Below are positions 7,323 through 17,014 of a DNA stretch of 64,000 nucleotides, piece after piece. How positions within the stretch are numbered: position 1 is the first letter of the stretch; each line of letters opens with the position of its first letter. The notes under the pieces are model-generated. The model did no database searches, had not been told where the DNA came from, and was given only the letters and a program-made list of their open reading frames with translations. Position numbers and translations under genes: made by a program. Source of the stretch: Amanita rubescens (Eukaryota; Basidiomycota; Agaricomycetes; Agaricales; Amanitaceae); the NCBI GenBank assembly GCA_015039365.1, contig WION01000172.1:1-64000 (forward strand). Direction: 5' to 3'.

Positions 7323-7949
7323 GCTCATGAAGGTGCACTCCTTTTTATCCCTTTTCTATTCTTTTTCTTTACTTTCATTAATACATCACTTTGTCGGACT
7401 CCGTGACCACCTTGAGGAAATCCTCACGTCCACCTCATTCCTATTACATCATTACAGTACTTAATTTCCTGACTACTAAGTATAAATAGTACCTAGATAC
7501 CATTGAATATACTTACACGTTTGCCTCCCCAAACACTCGCTGTGTGACTGTTCCTCCAACAGCCACAGTCTGAGTAATTGATAAGAGAGTAAGTGAGGTG
7601 AAGAATATGTGAAGAAATACTGGGATACTTATCTGCCAGTGATACCCGATTAGGAAGGTCTGTATGCATGCATGCTAAGTCCATATGCCAGAGTCCGAGA
7701 TCATTGTCCATCATGATATCCATCATACTTGAACAGATCATGATGAACCAACCAACCAACCAAACCAACCAGGCAATTGGCTAAGAAGTTCAGAGTATTT
7801 GAAGAGTTACCACAACCACATGATCACTACTATTTGTACCACAAACAACATTTCGTGCTGTCCAAGTTCAGCAGTCGAAGTTGTAACATGGTCACGGTCA
7901 CAGTTTTGTACCACCATGATTGCTGAGGGTGGACTTGGGTTTCTGAGGT

Positions 7950-8790
7950 AATTGCAATGGTTTCTGGGGTTTATGAGGTCGCTGAATTCGATGGTGTAGT
8001 CGGCTTAGCGCGAAATTCAGTTACGGCTCCGCTAGACCATTTTTTTGCTGTATAAGGCATTGAAAATGACCTATCATTTGAAGCAGAGGTCACTGCTGAG
8101 GTGAGTTCAAGTGGTTTCTGGGGTTTATGAGGTCGCTGAATCCGATGGTGTAGTTGGTGTGGCACGAAATTCAGTTACGGTTCTGCTAGACCGTTTTTTT
8201 GCTTTATAAGGCATTGAAAATGACCTATCATTTGAAGCAGAGGTCGCTGCTGAGGTAAGTTCAAGTGGTTTCTGGGGTTTATGAGGTCGCTGAATCCGAT
8301 GGTGTAGTCAGCGGTGCGCGAAATTCAGTTACGGTTCCGCTAGACCGTTTTTTTGCTTTATAAGGCATTGAAAATGACCTATCATTTGAAGCAGAGGTCG
8401 CTGCTGAGGTGAGTTCAAGTGGTTTCTGGGGTTTATGAGGTCGCTGAATTCGATGGTGTAGTCGGCGTAGCGCGAAATTCAGTTACGGTTCCGCTAGACC
8501 GTTTTTTTGCTTTATAAGGCATTGAAATGACCTATTATTAGAGGCAGAGGTCGCTGCTGAGGTGGGTTCAAGTGGTTTCTGGGGTTTATGAGGTCGCTGA
8601 ATTCGATGGTGTAGTCAGCGTAGCGCGAAATTCAGTTACGGTTCTGCTAGACCGTTTTTTTGCTTTATAAGGCATTGAAAATGATGTATCATTTGAAGCA
8701 GAGGTCACTACTGAGGTGGGTTCAGGTGGTTCCTGGGGTTTTTGAGGTCGCAGAATCCAATGGTGTTGTCAGGGTTTTAGTTATGGTTAT
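7950..8790. repeat. 154-bp tandem repeat, about 5.5 copies
   Basis: The marker TTTCTGGGGTTTATGAGGTC starts at 7961, 8115, 8269, 8423 and 8576, with a variant near 8730, giving a 153-154 bp period. Units share a T-tract (GACCGTTTTTTTGC) and differ by scattered substitutions. The period is not a multiple of three and there is no continuous frame, so it is treated as non-coding. Confidence 0.85.
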
Positions 8791-9060: not shown

Positions 9061-11300
9061 CTCATCACAAGTCATCCCACTACACTGTGTCCGGCCAGGC
9101 TGGACAGGTGATGCATAGGCTGTAAACAAACAAAACAAACAAACAACCAACCAACCAACCAAACCAACCAAACCAACCAACCAACCATGTAAACCAACCA
9201 ACCATGTAAAGATACCATTCAAAACATGTCGTAGGCAAGTACATACATTGATATGTTGCCACCACTGATCATAAGTCATCCTATCTACACCGTGTCCGGC
9301 CAGGCCGGACAGGTGATGCATAGGCTGTAACCAACCAACCATGTATAGGATACCGTTCAAAACATGTCATAGGCATAAGTCACCCCATCTACACCGTGTC
9401 CGGCCAGGCCGGACAGGTGATGCATAGGCTGTAAACAACCAACCATGTATAAGATAACCAAACCAAACCAACCATGTATAAGATACCATTCAAAACATGT
9501 CGTAGGCAAGTACATACATTGATATGTTGCCACCACTGATCATAAGTCATCCTATCTACACCGTGTCCGGCCAGGCCGGACAGGTGATGCATAGGCTGTA
9601 ACCAACCAACCAACCATGTATAGGATACCGTTCAAAACATGTCATAGGCATAAGTCACCCCATCTACACCGTGTCCGGCCAGGCCGGACAGGTGATGCAT
9701 AGGCTGTAAACAACCAACCATGTATAAGATAACCAAACCAAACCAACCATGTATAAGATACCATTCAAAACATGTCGTAGGCAAGTACATACATTGATAT
9801 GTTGCCACCACTCATCACAAGTCATCCCATCTACACTGTGTCCGGCCAGGCCGGACAGGTGATGCATAGGCTGTAACCAACCATGTATAGGATACCGTTC
9901 AAAACATGTCATAACATGTCATAGGCATAAGTCACCCCATCTACACCGTGTCTGGCCAGGCCAGACAGGTGATGCATAGGCTGTAACCAACCATGTATAG
10001 GATACCATTCAAAACATGTCATAGGCATAAGTCACCCCATCTACACCGTGTCCGGCCAGGCCGGACAGGTGATGCATAGGCTGTAAACATGTATAACATG
10101 TATAAGATACCATTCAAAATATGTCGTAAGCAAGTACCTGTGTCATCATACATTAATACATTGCCACCACTCATCACAAGTCATCCCATCTACACTGTGT
10201 CCGGCCAGGCCAGACAGGTATGCATGGGCTGTAACCAACCAACCATGTATAAGATACCACTCAAAATATGTTGTAGGCAAGTACATACATTGATATGTTG
10301 CCACCACTCATCACAAGTCATCCTGTCTACACCGTGTCCAGCCAGGCCGGACAGGTGATGCATAGGCTGTAACCAACCATGTATAAGATACCGTTCAAAA
10401 CATGTTGTAGGCAAGTACATACATGATTGATATGTTGCCACCACTCATCATAAGTCATCCCATCTACACCGTGTCCGGCCAGGCCGGACAGGTGATGCAT
10501 AGGCTGTAACCAACCATGTATAAGATACCATTCAAAATATGTTGTACTAGGCAGGTGTGTCATCATACATTGATGTTGCCACCACTCATCACAAGTTGTC
10601 CTGTCTACACCGTGTCTGACACCACTCATCACAAGTCATCCCACTACACTGTGTCCGGCCAGGCCGGACAGGTGATGCATAGGCTGTAAACAACCAACCA
10701 TGTATAAGATACCATTCAAAACATGTCGTAGGCAAGTACATACATTGATATGTTGCCACCACTCATCATAAGTCATCCCATCTACACCGTGTCCGGCCAG
10801 GCCGGACAGGTGATGCATAGGCTGTAACCAACCATGTATAGGATACCATTCAAAACATGTCATAGGCATAAGTCACCCCATCTACACCGTGTCTGGCCAG
10901 GCCGGACAGGTGATGCAGAGGCTGTAACCAACCATGTATAACCAACCATGTATAGGATACTGTTCAAAACATGTCATAGGCATAAGTCACCCCATCTACA
11001 CCATGTCCGGCCAGGCCGGACAGGTGATGCAGAGGCTGTAACCATGTATAAGATACCATTCAAAATATGTTGTAGGCAAGTCTGTCATCATACATTGATG
11101 TTGCCACCACTCATCACAAGTCATCCTGTCTACACTGTGTCCGGCCAGGCCGGACAGGTAATGCATAGGCTGTAAGCAACCAAACCAACCATGTATAAGA
11201 TACCATTCAAAATATGTCATAGGCAAGTACCTGTGTCATCATCCATTCATATGTTACCAGCACTCATCACAAGTCATCCAATCTACACCATGTCTGGACT
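9061..11300. repeat. Palindrome-containing satellite array (~16 units)
   Basis: Each unit carries TGTCCGGCCAGGCCGGACA (9-1-9 bp perfect palindrome) plus GTGATGCATAGGCTGTAAC, AACC runs and a ..GATACCATTCAAAACATGTC.. spacer. Palindromes lie near 9091, 9296, 9398, 9565, 9673, 9840, 9953, 10053, 10199, 10335, 10481, 10657, 10792, 10893, 11010 and 11144. A truncated copy near 11290 ends the array. Spacing alternates between about 100-115 and 137-170 bp, so two unit types are interleaved. Open frames here translate the repeat. Confidence 0.85.
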
Positions 11301-11880
11301 GTGCGCATCAGCAGCCCAGGTCCACCAAAAAGGCTTAACCCTAAATTAGGAGTTAGGCCTTTTGTGCAACCCTAGCACAACCCTGGAGGGACCTATTAAC
11401 CCTCAGCCATAAAACCCAACCCAAGGACAGTCTGCCTGTTAAAGGACACAGTTGGCACAGACACCTTCAGCTGGGTCATGATATCTACAAGTTCACAGAG
11501 CAGCATAAATGAAGCACTACACAGCTTCATAATTTGCACATGATAAATTCATCAGAGTATGTAGAAAAATAATTGCTATGCAGATTGTACTGTGTGACAC
11601 AATGTATCACTGTCACATGCCTCCAAATAAGGAAAGTCTCCATGAAAGCAGATATACATTATTTCCTTTATATCTCCAAAACTACACCACCAATTCCTTA
11701 GCTATTTTAGGGCTGATATATTAAGCATATAAGCTGTTAACTGATATCTTTACTTCCAGGAAAAAATGGTTCTTTATTATACATATATAGGTATAAAATC
11801 CACATTAATAATAAATCACCAGAATATCATGCTGGGTGTTTCACCCTGCCATAAATTGTTCATAAGTATTGAATGCATGA
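11301..11880. other. No gene seen; 3' flank of the GTPase gene
   Basis: AT-rich sequence with no supported open frame, between the satellite array and the stop codon of the minus-strand GTPase gene. It presumably holds that gene's 3' UTR. Confidence 0.5.
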
Positions 11881-14800
11881 CTAGACAAAGTACCCACCAT
11901 CAATGTGTGTCACCTGCCTATAGAGTAATGTGACCAAATCTTGATGATCAGAGTGAATAATGTCAGGAGTAATGTCAGTCTTGAGCTTCTGAACATAGCT
12001 TTTTTGTTTGTATTGGTCCAAGGCTTCTGTGACTGATGGCACAAATGGTTTATTGATCCAAAAGGATAGCTTGGCAATGATGATAATTGCTTGAAGGTTT
12101 AAGCATAAATACAGCAAATGAAAAGAAATGATTTACAAACTAAGACCTGGCAATTAATAGGCTTTTTGCAATGGCATAAGTTATGTATGTACTATGCCTC
12201 AAAAAAGAACAAAAATATGTACCTTGACTGCAAAGTTCCTTTCCTTTTCTTCATTGAACATGGAGAAAAGTTTATCCTAGGAAAAGATGTGATGAGATTG
12301 CCTTTCACAAAATGTGCAATGTCACTCACAAGCTGTTGGTCATAGGAAAAGATGTGATGAGACTGCCTTTCACAAAATGTGCAATGTCACTCACAGGCTG
12401 TTGGTCATAGGAAAAGATGTGATGAGACTGCCTTTCACAAAATGTGCAATGTCACTCACAAACTGTTGGTCATAGGAAAAGATGTGATGAGACTGCCTTT
12501 CACAAAATGTGCAATGTCACTCACAACCTGTTGGTCATAGGAAAAGATGTGATGAGACTGCCTTTCACAAAATGTGCAATGTCACTCACTCCCTGTTGGT
12601 CATAGGAAAAGATGTGATGAGACTGCCTTTCACAAAATGTGCAATGTCACTCACTCCCTGTTGGTCATAGGAAAAGATGTGATGAGACTGCCTTTCACAA
12701 AATGTGCAATGTCACTCACTCCCTGTTGGTCATAGGAAAAGATGTGATGAGACTGCCTTTCACAAAATGTGCAATGTCACTCACTCCCTGTTGGTCATAG
12801 GAAAAGATGTGATGAGACTGCCTTTCACAAAATGTGCAATGTCACTCACAACCTGTTGGTCATAGGAAAAGATGTGATGAGACTGCCTTTCACAAAATGT
12901 GCAATGTCACTCACTCGCTGTTGGTCATAGGAAAAGATGTGATGAGACTGCCTTTCACAAAATGTGCAATGTCACTCACTCGCTGTTGGTCATAGGAAAA
13001 GATGTGATGAGACTGCCTTTCACAAAATGTGCGATGTCACTCACTCGCTGTTGGTCATAGGAAAAGATGTGATGAGACTGCCTTTCACAAAATGTGCAAT
13101 GTCACTCACAACCTGTTGGTCATAGGAAAAGATGTGATGAGACTGCCTTTCACAAAATGTGCAATGTCACTCACAACCTGTTGGTCATAGGAAAAGATGT
13201 GATGAGACTGCCTTTCACAAAATGTGCAATGTCACTCACTCCCTGTTGGTCATAGGAAAAGATGTGATGAGACTGCCTTTCACAAAATGTGCAATGTCAC
13301 TCACAACCTGTTGGTCATAGGAAAAGATGTGATGAGACTGCCTTTCACAAAATGTGCAATGTCACTCACAACCTGTTGGTCATAGGAAAAGATGTGATGA
13401 GACTGCCTTTCACAAAATGTGCAATGTCACTCACTCCCTGTTGGTCATAGGAAAAGATGTGATGAGACTGCCTTTCACAAAATGTGCAATGTCACTCACA
13501 ACCTGTTGGTCATAGGAAAAGATGTGATGAGACTGCCTTTCACAAAATGTGCAATGTCACTCACAACCTGTTGGTCATAGGAAAAGATGTGATGAGACTG
13601 CCTTTCACAAAATGTGCAATGTCACTCACTCCCTGTTGGTCATAGGAAAAGATGTGATGAGACTGCCTTTCACAAAATGTGCAATGTCACTCACTTGCTG
13701 TTGGTCATAGGAAAAGATGTGATGAGACTGCCTTTCACAAAATGTGCAATGTCACTCACTCGCTGTTGGTCATAGGAAAAGATGTGATGAGACTTGGACT
13801 GCCTTCTGCAAAAATCTTCAATGTTGCTCACATCCTGTCAGTCACAGGAAAAGAATACATAAGCAACCTTTCATAAATATTTGCAATGTTACTCACATAC
13901 TATTGGCATTAGGCAAAATTTTGATAAGGTCATCTTTTGAACCACTAAACCAGCATGACATGCTGCTAACCTTCTATGTTCATAGGAAAAGATGTGATTT
14001 CACTGCTTTTCACAAAACTTGCAATATCACCCACAATCTGTAGAACAAAACAATGTGTCCAAATTGTCCTGTAGCAGAGTGACTAGCATCACTCACTTCC
14101 TTTTAGAATAGAATTAGCACCATGAGTTGGGAAAAAAGAAAAAAATGCCACCAACTCTCTTTTGCCATGGTATTTTATATGATTAATTCACATTTCAAGG
14201 ATCACATACATCCTGTTTGTGTTGAAATAGCTTGTCAAGAGGCTTTGAATGGGAGAAATATTTACTGTCTGTTGTTTTAAGACAAGATGTAATGTTTATA
14301 AGCAGACAGAAAGGAAATCTCACTTACTTCCTGTTATTAATCCAATGAAATTTGTTGAGACTCTCTTTCAGATAATAGCATGTCACCAACTTTCTGTTCT
14401 TCATTGAGTTATGTCTGATAAGCTGCACAAACATCAATGTTGCTTACTTTCTTTAAGCAGGTCAGATGCAGTGTGAAGCAGTGTTGTATTACTCACTCCC
14501 TGTCCATGAGAGACTGGATTGAGAAGTCTGCTTACAATGATAGATTAACTCACTTTCTATTGGTCATATGATGCACCATAGGATCATTTACCAAAAATCA
14601 AAATTGAGTCATGTCACTCACTTCCTGTAGATTATGGGACAAGACTGCTGATCATAAAGGGAAGCATTACTCACAAACTGTTGTCATCAGATAATATATC
14701 AGATCTATGCTAGTGCAATGTCACTTACCCACTGATATCAATATTATCAGATCCTGCCACCAAGAATATGGTGACAACTGACCTGTGCTTCACTCAGTTT

Positions 14801-16309
14801 TTCATTGGCCATCTGAAGCATGACTAATCTTGTTTTCATGTGAAGGTATTGGAGTGTTACTTACCTCCTGATGAACTTTTGCAAGCATTTATCATTCCAT
14901 ATGAAGGCCACCTACCACTCTGTCCACCTATTGCCATTTAAATTTTCCTATGCCAATGTGCAGTTTGACAAAAATGCATACCCAGAAATGTGGAAATTTT
15001 CCAAAAACTATGAGAATGACATCATCCCATGTCCAATGTTTATGTTTCAGAACATGTCTGAACAATGTCAATGTCAGTAAGTGACATGTTGAATGTGATC
15101 CTCACTGAAGTGCAGATTTAACACAAAGGTCAAGATTATTCATCTGTGTTGAAACAAACAGCTGATGTATGCTGTCATCATTTATTGCATCAGCAGTTTG
15201 CTGAGTCAATTCAGCACAATTCTTCTCTGGTAAATCCATGTCTATGAAACAACATTACTCCCATTTTTTGGGAAGAAATCCTCATCATTCTCACCTTCCA
15301 GTTGCACATATGCCTTGGGAGGACATTTGGCATCCAACACTTTTGGAAGATAATCATTCTGAAAAGTGATTTGAGCAATTTCCCTGGCTCTCTCCCACTT
15401 ATCTTCATTCTTTGCATCAGTCAAATTGGCAAATTCAATGTTTATTTGACCATCAAATTTGGTGAATATAACCACCAAAGGAACTGTAAGGGAAATATTT
15501 ACTAATCAGTACACTGTTGATTACTTAGTTGATTTTGTGGCAATTTAGCCATTGGAAAGGAGGTGACAATAATCTCTCCAAACCCAACAAGATACAAATT
15601 CATTAGGACTTACCTTTGCCTGTCCCTTTATTGAAGAATTCAAGCTCTGCAGATAGAATGGGACGAGGGCTATCCATGGGTATACAGTACCTACAGGAAA
15701 CCAGGTTAGACAGTATTGTAAAGGGATAAAGCAAGATACCAAATTGCATGCAGCTGATTCTTCAGCTCAGTTTCTACAGATTTCCTTTCAATGAACTTCC
15801 AAGCAATCTCCAATTCCTCAGTTGAACCAGATTCAAAACCCCGAGAGTCATGGAAGATAAAGTTACTTCCAGGGTATGTAATTTGATGCTCAATATCATG
15901 CAGGCCTCTCTGTTATCATTGCATATGAATGGGTATATTCATCCATCTTCATCCGACTTACCTCAACTGATGGCATCAAATGAATCATAGACTGTTCAAG
16001 CTGATTACCTACAAGAAACTCAGCAGTCAAAAGAATCACAAAAGTCAGACTGGCAACTCACCATCCATGTCATATATGATGGGCTTTGTTCCCTTTGCTA
16101 CACCACAAACCTTCTCAAGGATGGTTGTCTTGCCTGCATTAGCCCTCCCAATGACAAGGATGCGAAAATGTGGGCATAGATAGCGTTCCTTGAGTATTTG
16201 AACATGTGTCTCATCTGCATCTGATACTATGTCAGTCAAGGATTAGTAAAAAATGCTGAGTCACATAAATTAGCCTACTCAAAGAAGGTGCACCAGTTGT
16301 AGCTGCCAT
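11881..16309 (-). CDS. G-domain (MMR_HSR1-like) GTPase encoded by ~53 exons, 40 of them single-codon microexons
   Basis: The start ATG is at 16309 and the stop at 11881. Exons 16309-16279, 16226-16062, 16008-15962, 15909-15740, 15690-15614, 15483-15295, 15241-15106, 15057-14982 and 14927-14916 encode the G domain: G1 GRANAGKTT, G3 HDSRGFESG, G4 FTKFD, then PPKAYVQLE and LFVSTQMNNLDLCVK. Next come a 3-nt exon (14867-14865), a 30-nt exon (14812-14783) and 39 further 3-nt exons. Conventional exons follow at 12276-12223 (DKLFSMFNEEKERNF), 12146-12137 and 12089-11881. All exons sum to 1,326 nt, an exact multiple of three with no internal stop. Every junction is AG/GT with 46-71 nt introns, except one of 130 nt. 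This type of predicted GTPase is abundant in Agaricomycetes and its substrate is unknown. The conventional exons are near certain; splicing of the microexons is inferred from sequence. Confidence 0.85.
12277..13765 (-). repeat. 65-bp tandem array: 23 copies of [62-nt intron + 3-nt exon]
   Basis: There are 23 units with an exact 65-bp period; the triplets sit at 13762-13760, 13697-13695 and so on to 12332-12330. On the minus strand each unit reads CAG, a triplet, then GTGAGTGACATTGCAC..ATGACCAACAG. The 62 intronic positions are almost invariant (one substitution noted near 13033). The triplet takes seven forms. Reading the gene, these are CGA, CAA, then (GGA, GTT, GTT) three times, three CGA, GTT, four GGA, GTT, TTT, CCT, CTT. 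The last intron (12329-12277) is a shortened copy of the same intron. Confidence 0.95.
13766..14870 (-). other. Diverged zone of the microexon region: 17 single-codon exons between unlike introns
   Basis: Triplets flanked by AG and GT lie at 14867-14865, 14731-14729, 14677-14675, 14624-14622, 14556-14554, 14499-14497, 14450-14448, 14393-14391, 14330-14328, 14268-14266, 14212-14210, 14158-14156, 14099-14097, 14037-14035, 13973-13971, 13899-13897 and 13834-13832. Donors are GTAAGT, GTGAGT, GTAAGC, GTTGGT, GTATGT, GTAAAT, GTGGGT, GTTAGC or GTGAGC; acceptors are CAG, TAG or AAG. The encoded residues (W F E K G K K E T D R E I K Y D after the 30-nt exon) look like a charged helix. Introns nearest the array still resemble the array intron. 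Confidence 0.8.
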
Positions 16310-17014
16310 GACTGATGTTGTGCTAGGATCAAGATCAGATTGTTTGATTGAGGGTGGTGAAAAGGAAATGCTCACCACAGATAGTGGAAAAAGCAAGTGA
16401 TAGCTGGGTCGTAAATGTGAATCAAGAAGAGTTGTGTACTGGACTCGATGGATGATGTGCCTGGACTCTGGATTAAGATATCAGCAAGCAGCAATGGTGA
16501 TTTCAATGATGTGGCTTGACCTACTATACGTGAAGTGTAGATGGTGTGTCTGGCGAGTCGAGATCAAAGAGATAACGGTGCGTCGGGTAACCGTGGGAGC
16601 TGCCAGTTAGCGTTTGGTCAAGACTTGAGAGCGCGCACGACGCAGAGCGATGCGAGTGTAGTAGTGACTGTGTGGCACGGGTACGAGCGAAACCGAATGG
16701 TGCGTCTGGTCAAAGGGTTGCGACTCGGAGCGCGCAGGACTATAAGTTCACGAGGCAGCACAGACCCCCAGGAACTGGGTTGCTCTCAGGCCCAGCCATA
16801 CGTATTTGGATAACTTCTCCATTCGGCAACGTGGTAGACCCCATCTTCCTTCTACTTATTCTAGCCCTTTCTCGAAACTACGGACTCTCAGGCCAGTGCG
16901 GACGGGCGCTCGCTTACGATGGTGCTCCGTTCCGTCCTTTCGCTGACCCACTACACACACGCCCATCTCCACCAGTCCATCGCAACCTATATAATCTTAC
17001 GGTCAAGCCAACAA
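16310..17014. other. No gene supported; upstream region of the GTPase
   Basis: The first ~200 bases upstream of the GTPase start presumably contain its promoter, but no definite TATA element can be assigned. The rest is diverged unique sequence without a convincing coding frame. Confidence 0.4.

Follow-up and report, generated by a model that had tools for sequence, protein, structure and literature searches.

Whether a stretch of protein can be written one codon per exon, over tens of consecutive exons, is the question raised by a gene of the basidiomycete Amanita rubescens. It lies on the minus strand of contig WION01000172.1 (assembly GCA_015039365.1), of which positions 1 to 64,000, hereafter the window, were analysed. 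A first-pass annotation had proposed that 40 isolated triplets between its ordinary exons are real exons maintained by selection on splicing. Our analysis indicates that the window gene very likely belongs to a large family of P-loop GTPases in Amanita, in which a C-terminal stretch is encoded as a series of one-codon exons. Comparison across the family establishes, at the level of predicted exons, that each array intron is complete, that the exon between two introns is a single phase-0 codon, and that roughly the first 15 codons are conserved and the rest hypervariable.

A dynamic-programming splice chain resolves the window gene (16309 to 11881) into 52 exons, of which 42 are small; these are preceded by eight ordinary G-domain exons and followed by two more ordinary ones that end the gene. 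Forty of the small exons measure 3 nucleotides (nt); they extend from 14867-14865 down to 12332-12330, each in the layout AG-NNN-GT and all in phase 0. The 43 introns between 14981 and 12277 are 46-71 nt long, and the eight ordinary introns comprise six of 48-53 nt and two of 130 and 153 nt. The chain thereby confirms the earlier description of 40 triplets, separated by introns of 46-71 nt, that link the G domain to the C-terminal exons without a stop. The joined frame, free of internal stops, comes to 1,296 nt with the stop at 11881 counted, not the 1,326 nt given previously, and the exon inventory, correct for the single-codon exons, had left two small exons unnamed. These are a 12-nt exon at 14927-14916 (VDRV, with VDRE or VDRG in several paralogues, VDR in the related protein P0002 and VGRD in P0008) and a 30-nt exon at 14812-14783 (MANEKLSEAQ, corresponding to VTNEQLSETK in P0002 and MANKQLSEAQ in P0008). 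The splice chain places the first single-codon exon, GAG (E), at 14867-14865, and the peptide predicted across the junctions reads KFPHFW-VDR-E-MANEKLSEAQ-WFEKGKKETDREIKY.

The remaining single-codon exons fall into two zones. Fifteen of them, at 14731-13897 (W F E K G K K E T D R E I K Y), form a conserved block whose introns are mutually diverged and whose residues are contiguous in P0002 as WFEKGKKESDREIEY. The following 24, at 13834-12330 (D R Q G V V G V V G V V R R R V G G G G V F P L), include 23 inside a homogenised array with 62-nt introns. Tandem Repeats Finder reports this array as a 65-bp unit in 23.3 copies with 97% matches at 12278-13794; the unit consists of a 62-nt intron plus one codon, and the array houses the last 23 triplets of the gene. 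Such a repeat could be a minisatellite within one long intron, its triplets never being used as exons. The near-uniform tandem units themselves speak for this explanation, as does the preservation of the frame when the whole array is skipped. In a protein search, the window gene matched the annotated A. rubescens protein P0001 at 100%, with 69% of the query covered; this predicted protein ends in ..FPHFWVDRVVDGQ, and the array is therefore absent from that annotation. The distant predicted protein P0066 has its FPHYW exon almost directly before the C-terminal sequence, which can likewise be read in favour of a single long intron.

To follow the array beyond the window, its units were located in the genome by nhmmer, and the unit was present on many other contigs. 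Fifteen stretches were read, then five more and one array without flanks, and the window gene was added. In all 21 flanked loci, the window included, the exon adjoining the array on its upstream side has KFPHFW or KFPHLW as its last residues, and the same closing exon is present in 20 of the 21, the other locus (L012) running off its contig. In the window gene, the first exon past the array (DKLFSMFNEEKERNFAVK, phase 0) lies at 12276-12223, with a related exon detected by tblastn in 11 of the 15 other loci of the first set and in 5/5 of the second; the last exon (LSFWINKPF...GGYFV and the stop) lies at 12069-11881 and has matches at family loci. Since the genome yields 270 matches for the G-domain query and 150 for the closing exon (several exons and haplotype copies included), the family must be far larger than the loci read. 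Splice chains were obtained in 18 of the 20 loci sought, with 84 single-codon exons predicted in L009 and 85 in L015. Array introns are mostly 62 nt and span 46-75 nt over the arrays read; one locus, L029 (G000:C8:77300-80700), was homogenised apart from the others, on an intron version of 53 nt, and has 3-nt spacers in 48 of 50 cases. The short unit pattern CAGNNNGTGAGTGACATTGCACATTTTGTG has 817 exact matches in the genome versus none for a reversed control. A chance origin of the array is excluded by this count, by the shared position within the gene throughout the family, and by the lack of stops described below.

The splice chain itself favours 3-nt exons and penalises stops, and independent tests were therefore added. 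For these, spacers were called by an intron profile that makes no use of exon length, and a pseudogene-like locus (L020) and four near-identical copies (L009, L012, L016 and L018) were left out of the spacer and triplet counts. In five old arrays, with introns of 49-75 nt, 183 of 185 spacers are exactly 3 nt. The 11 younger arrays give 386 of 396, or 573 of 587 in 15 arrays once the four copies are added; the ten exceptions among the 396 comprise three spacers of 6 nt and seven of 2 or 4 nt, in L017, L019 and L023. Not one of the 569 triplets is a stop, compared with within-array permutation means of 18.3 and 12.4 (30.7 in total) and minima of 8 and 5. Codon choice is equally distinctive. The ratio of NAG to NAA codons is 3:144 in triplets, compared with 203:239 for the ordinary exons of these genes (P 5e-28), and for glycine and arginine the ratio of NGT to NGA is 1:170 versus 63:11 (P 1e-45), P values that are too small because the triplets of one genome are related. 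Codons ending in AG or GT would create an extra acceptor or donor; both are strongly avoided in triplets, a large contrast of the sort expected if the spliceosome uses these junctions. The 3-nt spacing by itself was also considered as proof of selection and rejected, as few indels are expected in 3 nt.

A natural control is provided by L020 (G000:C749), whose last exon is frameshifted. Its spacers are 3 nt in just 30 of 47 cases, many of the others being 1, 2 or 4 nt, as expected after constraint has been lost. This locus, together with the frame-breaking spacers of L017, L018, L019 and L023, could suggest that the family consists mostly of pseudogenes and that the arrays are relics. Such a proposal is extremely improbable: the old arrays keep 183 of 185 spacers at 3 nt without a single stop, and transcript-like proteins exist in relatives.

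These proteins strongly support the joining of the codons. The protein search was carried out after the chains had been predicted, and the best 120 of 814 matches were examined. The motif had been predicted from the triplets before any protein search, and was later found contiguous in two proteins. Among the matches listed are JGI proteins encoded on contigs of about 1-2 kb, including P0002 (386 amino acids, on 1,446 bp) and P0008 (on 1,903 bp), which share 13 and 10 of the 15 motif residues with the window gene, respectively. In P0002 the order is KFPHLW, VDR, AVTNEQLSETK, WFEKGKKESDREIEY, 40 variable residues, FRI and then VRFHFRGSPNPTSC; P0008 carries WFEHGKKDTDKQIVY at the position of the P0002 motif. 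In several A. rubescens members the last triplet is ATT and the following intron opens with GTAAGATTTCATTTCAG, so that read-through gives IVRFHFSSPTPTSC in L011 and L019. Because the P0002 tail IVRFHFRGSPNPTSC matches ATT plus intron read-through, P0002 has the appearance of a transcript that joins the codons and retains the last intron. A region-limited search with P0002, requiring shared 5-residue words, returned only P0002 and P0008 among 6 candidates, so these two proteins constitute the transcript evidence for the motif; a region-limited search with a composite C-terminal query gave no match at E 0.1 among 38 candidates. Judged from these transcript-like proteins, the codons of the window gene are very probably spliced together. 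The matches listed also include proteins of A. brunnescens, A. polypyramis and A. muscaria. As a side observation, the annotated end of protein P0003 of Amanita brunnescens, FWVFIFAKLHISI, resembles read-through into the same first array intron, and the one-codon-exon organisation may thus be present in other Amanita species.

With these results, the single-long-intron explanation becomes very improbable: a minisatellite would have to account for diversity confined to the triplet, the complete lack of stops, the biased codons, and a motif of separate triplets that is contiguous in P0002 and P0008. A different possibility is that the one-codon exons are real but are selected differently in each messenger RNA, with alternative splicing, not the genome, as the main source of diversity, a situation stated for truffle NACHT-ANK genes. 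Nearly all units are 3 nt and can be skipped in frame, passages of PMC9815663 report alternative splicing for the truffle genes that have 3-bp mini-exons, and the last intron is retained in P0002. However, P0002 contains 58 consecutive residues of the kind encoded by single-codon exons in A. rubescens, with no sign of mass skipping, and the codons already differ between genomic loci. Alternative splicing as the main source of diversity is accordingly judged unlikely, if a good deal less so than a minisatellite. Real one-codon exons under selection, as the first-pass annotation had proposed, are thus upheld by 3-nt spacers between the diverged introns of paralogues, zero stops, codons that avoid splice sites, and the proteins of relatives.

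The first block of triplets corresponds to the conserved motif WFEQGKKETDREIKY, and the codons beyond it are hypervariable. The opening triplets of all chained loci but one (17 of 18) give FEQGKKETDREIKY or a slightly altered form of it, L027 being without most of the motif; this motif is one codon shorter in L009, L015 and L022, and it is preceded by TGG (W) except in six loci, where the chain chose a 21-nt exon. In the motif zone of ten loci, 8 of 13 codons are common to all; nucleotide identity averages 0.950 for the codons and 0.875 for the intervening introns. In ten homogenised loci taken together, triplet sites have a diversity of 0.594 and sites in the intron interior one of 0.047, a difference of about 12-fold. 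For the five old arrays the values are 0.084 at the donor, 0.046 at the acceptor, 0.199 in the intron interior, which has drifted, and 0.643 in the triplet; the two splice sites are thus the conserved parts there, and the triplet varies most. The window gene and L010, a near relative, differ in their array parts at 37 of the 162 exon sites and 18 of the 2,541 intron sites, and in the flanks at 9 of 800, figures that are rough given the ambiguous register of near-identical units and 265 gap columns. Among distant JGI members, P0022 and P0027 are otherwise very similar and differ strongly between the WF motif and ELFSVFGEH.

Where one of the close copies L014 and L016 has a codon CGA, the other has ATC, and the next CGA is matched by GGA, without any change in the adjacent array introns. 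Repeated multi-unit runs in the triplet order show no general excess (P<0.05 in 2 of 17 arrays), so the codons seem to change faster than the arrays are copied. Targeted mutation or copying at splice junctions, as opposed to selection acting on ordinary mutation and exchange, would be consistent with this scarcity of multi-unit duplication, with triplets that differ although their introns are almost identical, and with the whole-codon changes in L014/L016. On the other hand, of 30 pairs of units with a rare intron variant in common (nine loci), 13 and 10 also agree in flanking triplets, against 4.6 expected for random pairs, as plain unit duplication would give; and the L014/L016 change is explicable by exchange, because that array has ATC and GGA at other positions as well. 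A targeted mechanism is therefore considered improbable. Support for a route through exchange or conversion is itself partial, the sharing of triplets by rare-variant units being set against the absence of a general excess of runs.

Several observations weigh against the proposed series of one-codon exons, or narrow it. With 114 of the 185 old introns differing from 62 nt, about 5-6 spacer indels would be expected by length, and two odd spacers were seen (5 and 9 nt, both in L024). Frame-breaking spacers of 2 or 4 nt occur in L017, L018, L019 and L023; no chain was obtained for L023 and L024; and the chained length is divisible by three in 13 of 18 chains, a count that includes L020 by chance, with the last small exon of L026 uncertain. 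In L022 an insertion of about 1.5 kb (a 1,483-nt gap between units) interrupts the array. The preference of the splice chains for 3-nt exons is a further reason for caution. Support for splicing comes from the proteins of relatives rather than from A. rubescens RNA: P0002 and P0008 belong to other fungi (best match per exon about 89%), their home loci could have fewer introns, and the JGI contigs are taken as transcripts solely on account of being intronless. Finally, the triplet order has no general repeat excess, and the variable peptide has no helix period beyond chance (1 of 17 arrays).

The G domain that precedes the array provides some indication of the kind of protein involved. Exons 1 and 2 (16309-16279 and 16226-16062) contain the start codon and the sequence GRANAGKTT and are identical to annotated P0001; six further ordinary exons (16008-15962, 15909-15740, 15690-15614, 15483-15295, 15241-15106 and 15057-14982) end in ..GKFPHFW in phase 0. 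The joined frame contains GRANAGKTT, DSRG and TKFD, largely invariant among 39 aligned proteins, which we take to be the P-loop, DxxG and TKxD motifs. Pfam PF01926 scores 19.6 bits against a curated cut-off of 21.9, and a Pfam scan to E 1 gave seven families, mostly GTPase or ATPase models, with no NACHT and no ankyrin match. A Foldseek search with the structural model of P0002 retrieved P-loop GTPases of generic type at low TM-scores, including G-alpha, EngB, septin, interferon-inducible IRG and mitofusin. The model is confident over the GTPase domain only; a low-confidence helix at residues 308-322 covers most of the conserved motif, and since the predicted local distance difference test score (pLDDT) is below 50 from residue 323 on, no fold is drawn for the variable tail. 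Nothing in these predictions indicates a NACHT protein. Elsewhere in the window, an Rfam scan of 11000-17000 gave no match, a second tandem array (154-bp unit, 5.4 copies) lies at 7943-8770, and complex minisatellites with a CCGGCCAGGCCGG palindrome occupy 9191-11078, a little downstream of the gene.

The arrangement has a precedent, contrary to the earlier statement that no gene with tens of consecutive one-codon exons was known. According to passages in PMC9815663, PMC3689799 and PMC4986451, citing Iotti et al. 2012, NACHT-ANK genes of the truffle Tuber melanosporum contain 3 bp mini-exons by the dozen, which PMC9815663 describes as alternatively spliced; related passages also appear in PMC10197012. 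Both cases, as far as those passages describe the truffle genes, concern an expanded P-loop NTPase family of an ectomycorrhizal fungus, with tens of codon-sized exons, an affected C-terminal part and a proposed role in recognition. They differ in that the Amanita gene is a basidiomycete GTPase without NACHT or ankyrin match here, whereas the truffle proteins are ascomycete, combine NACHT with ankyrin, and have reported alternative splicing. Hypervariable codons between homogenised introns are a trait of the Amanita arrays, the truffle arrays being compared by description only. The Amanita case is therefore a variant of the truffle mini-exon arrangement, in another phylum and another protein family; in searches of open-licence PubMed Central papers, no one-codon-exon array was found in a basidiomycete or a GTPase.

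Other systems, again as portrayed in passages of the cited papers, share single features. Schistosome micro-exon genes (PMC4015677) likewise have numerous tiny, symmetrical exons whose skipping preserves the frame; unlike them, the small exons of the window gene are symmetrical but do not dominate the coding sequence (162 of 1,296 nt), with micro-exons of one codon each, many of them in tandem repeats. WD-type repeats of fungal NOD-like receptors (NLRs; PMC10197012, PMC9815663) also combine highly similar repeats, a few hypervariable positions, reshuffling by recombination and concerted evolution, but those repeats are protein, whereas in Amanita it is the intron that is homogenised, each unit contributing only one codon to the protein. 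The 1-nt microexons of plant APC11 and VPS55 (PMC8831610) show that exons as short as 1 nt can undergo splicing and escape annotation, although they are single conserved exons, not arrays. Intron gain via tandem genomic duplication (PMC4974935, PMC3443670) can create introns, while the Amanita unit is an intron plus a codon, multiplied tens of times. Microexons are also mentioned for a basidiomycete P450 family (PMC1184071), and two 3-nt exons for an ascomycete gene (PMC5639578).

With regard to mechanism, introns of about 60 nt would be recognised by intron definition and removed successively, such that a 3-nt exon would never need exon recognition and each removal would leave a longer exon beside the next splice site. 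Because the unit is an intron plus an in-phase codon, single residues could be gained, lost or swapped in frame by exchange or conversion; unequal exchange or conversion between near-identical introns would then edit the protein one residue at a time, with selection for diversity acting on the codons. The variable tail might recognise non-self, such as rival strains, symbionts or parasites, as proposed for truffle NLRs that have similar mini-exons; non-self recognition would be the likeliest role of the family, and it is the least certain part of the proposal. Taken together, the introns may serve as recombination handles of a residue-by-residue diversity engine in a recognition tail, which would have arisen in parallel in truffles and Amanita on unrelated P-loop proteins, an idea to which we attach somewhat less than even confidence.

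If true, one-codon exon series would exist in two fungal phyla and in two unrelated nucleotide-binding families, in each case in the C-terminal part, and intron definition would be stretched to about 84 predicted consecutive one-codon exons in one gene. The same organisation would explain why annotation loses the ends of the family's proteins. It would also mean that introns can stay uniform while the intervening codons diversify, and the family would allow direct measurement of how fast, and by what route, single residues diversify.

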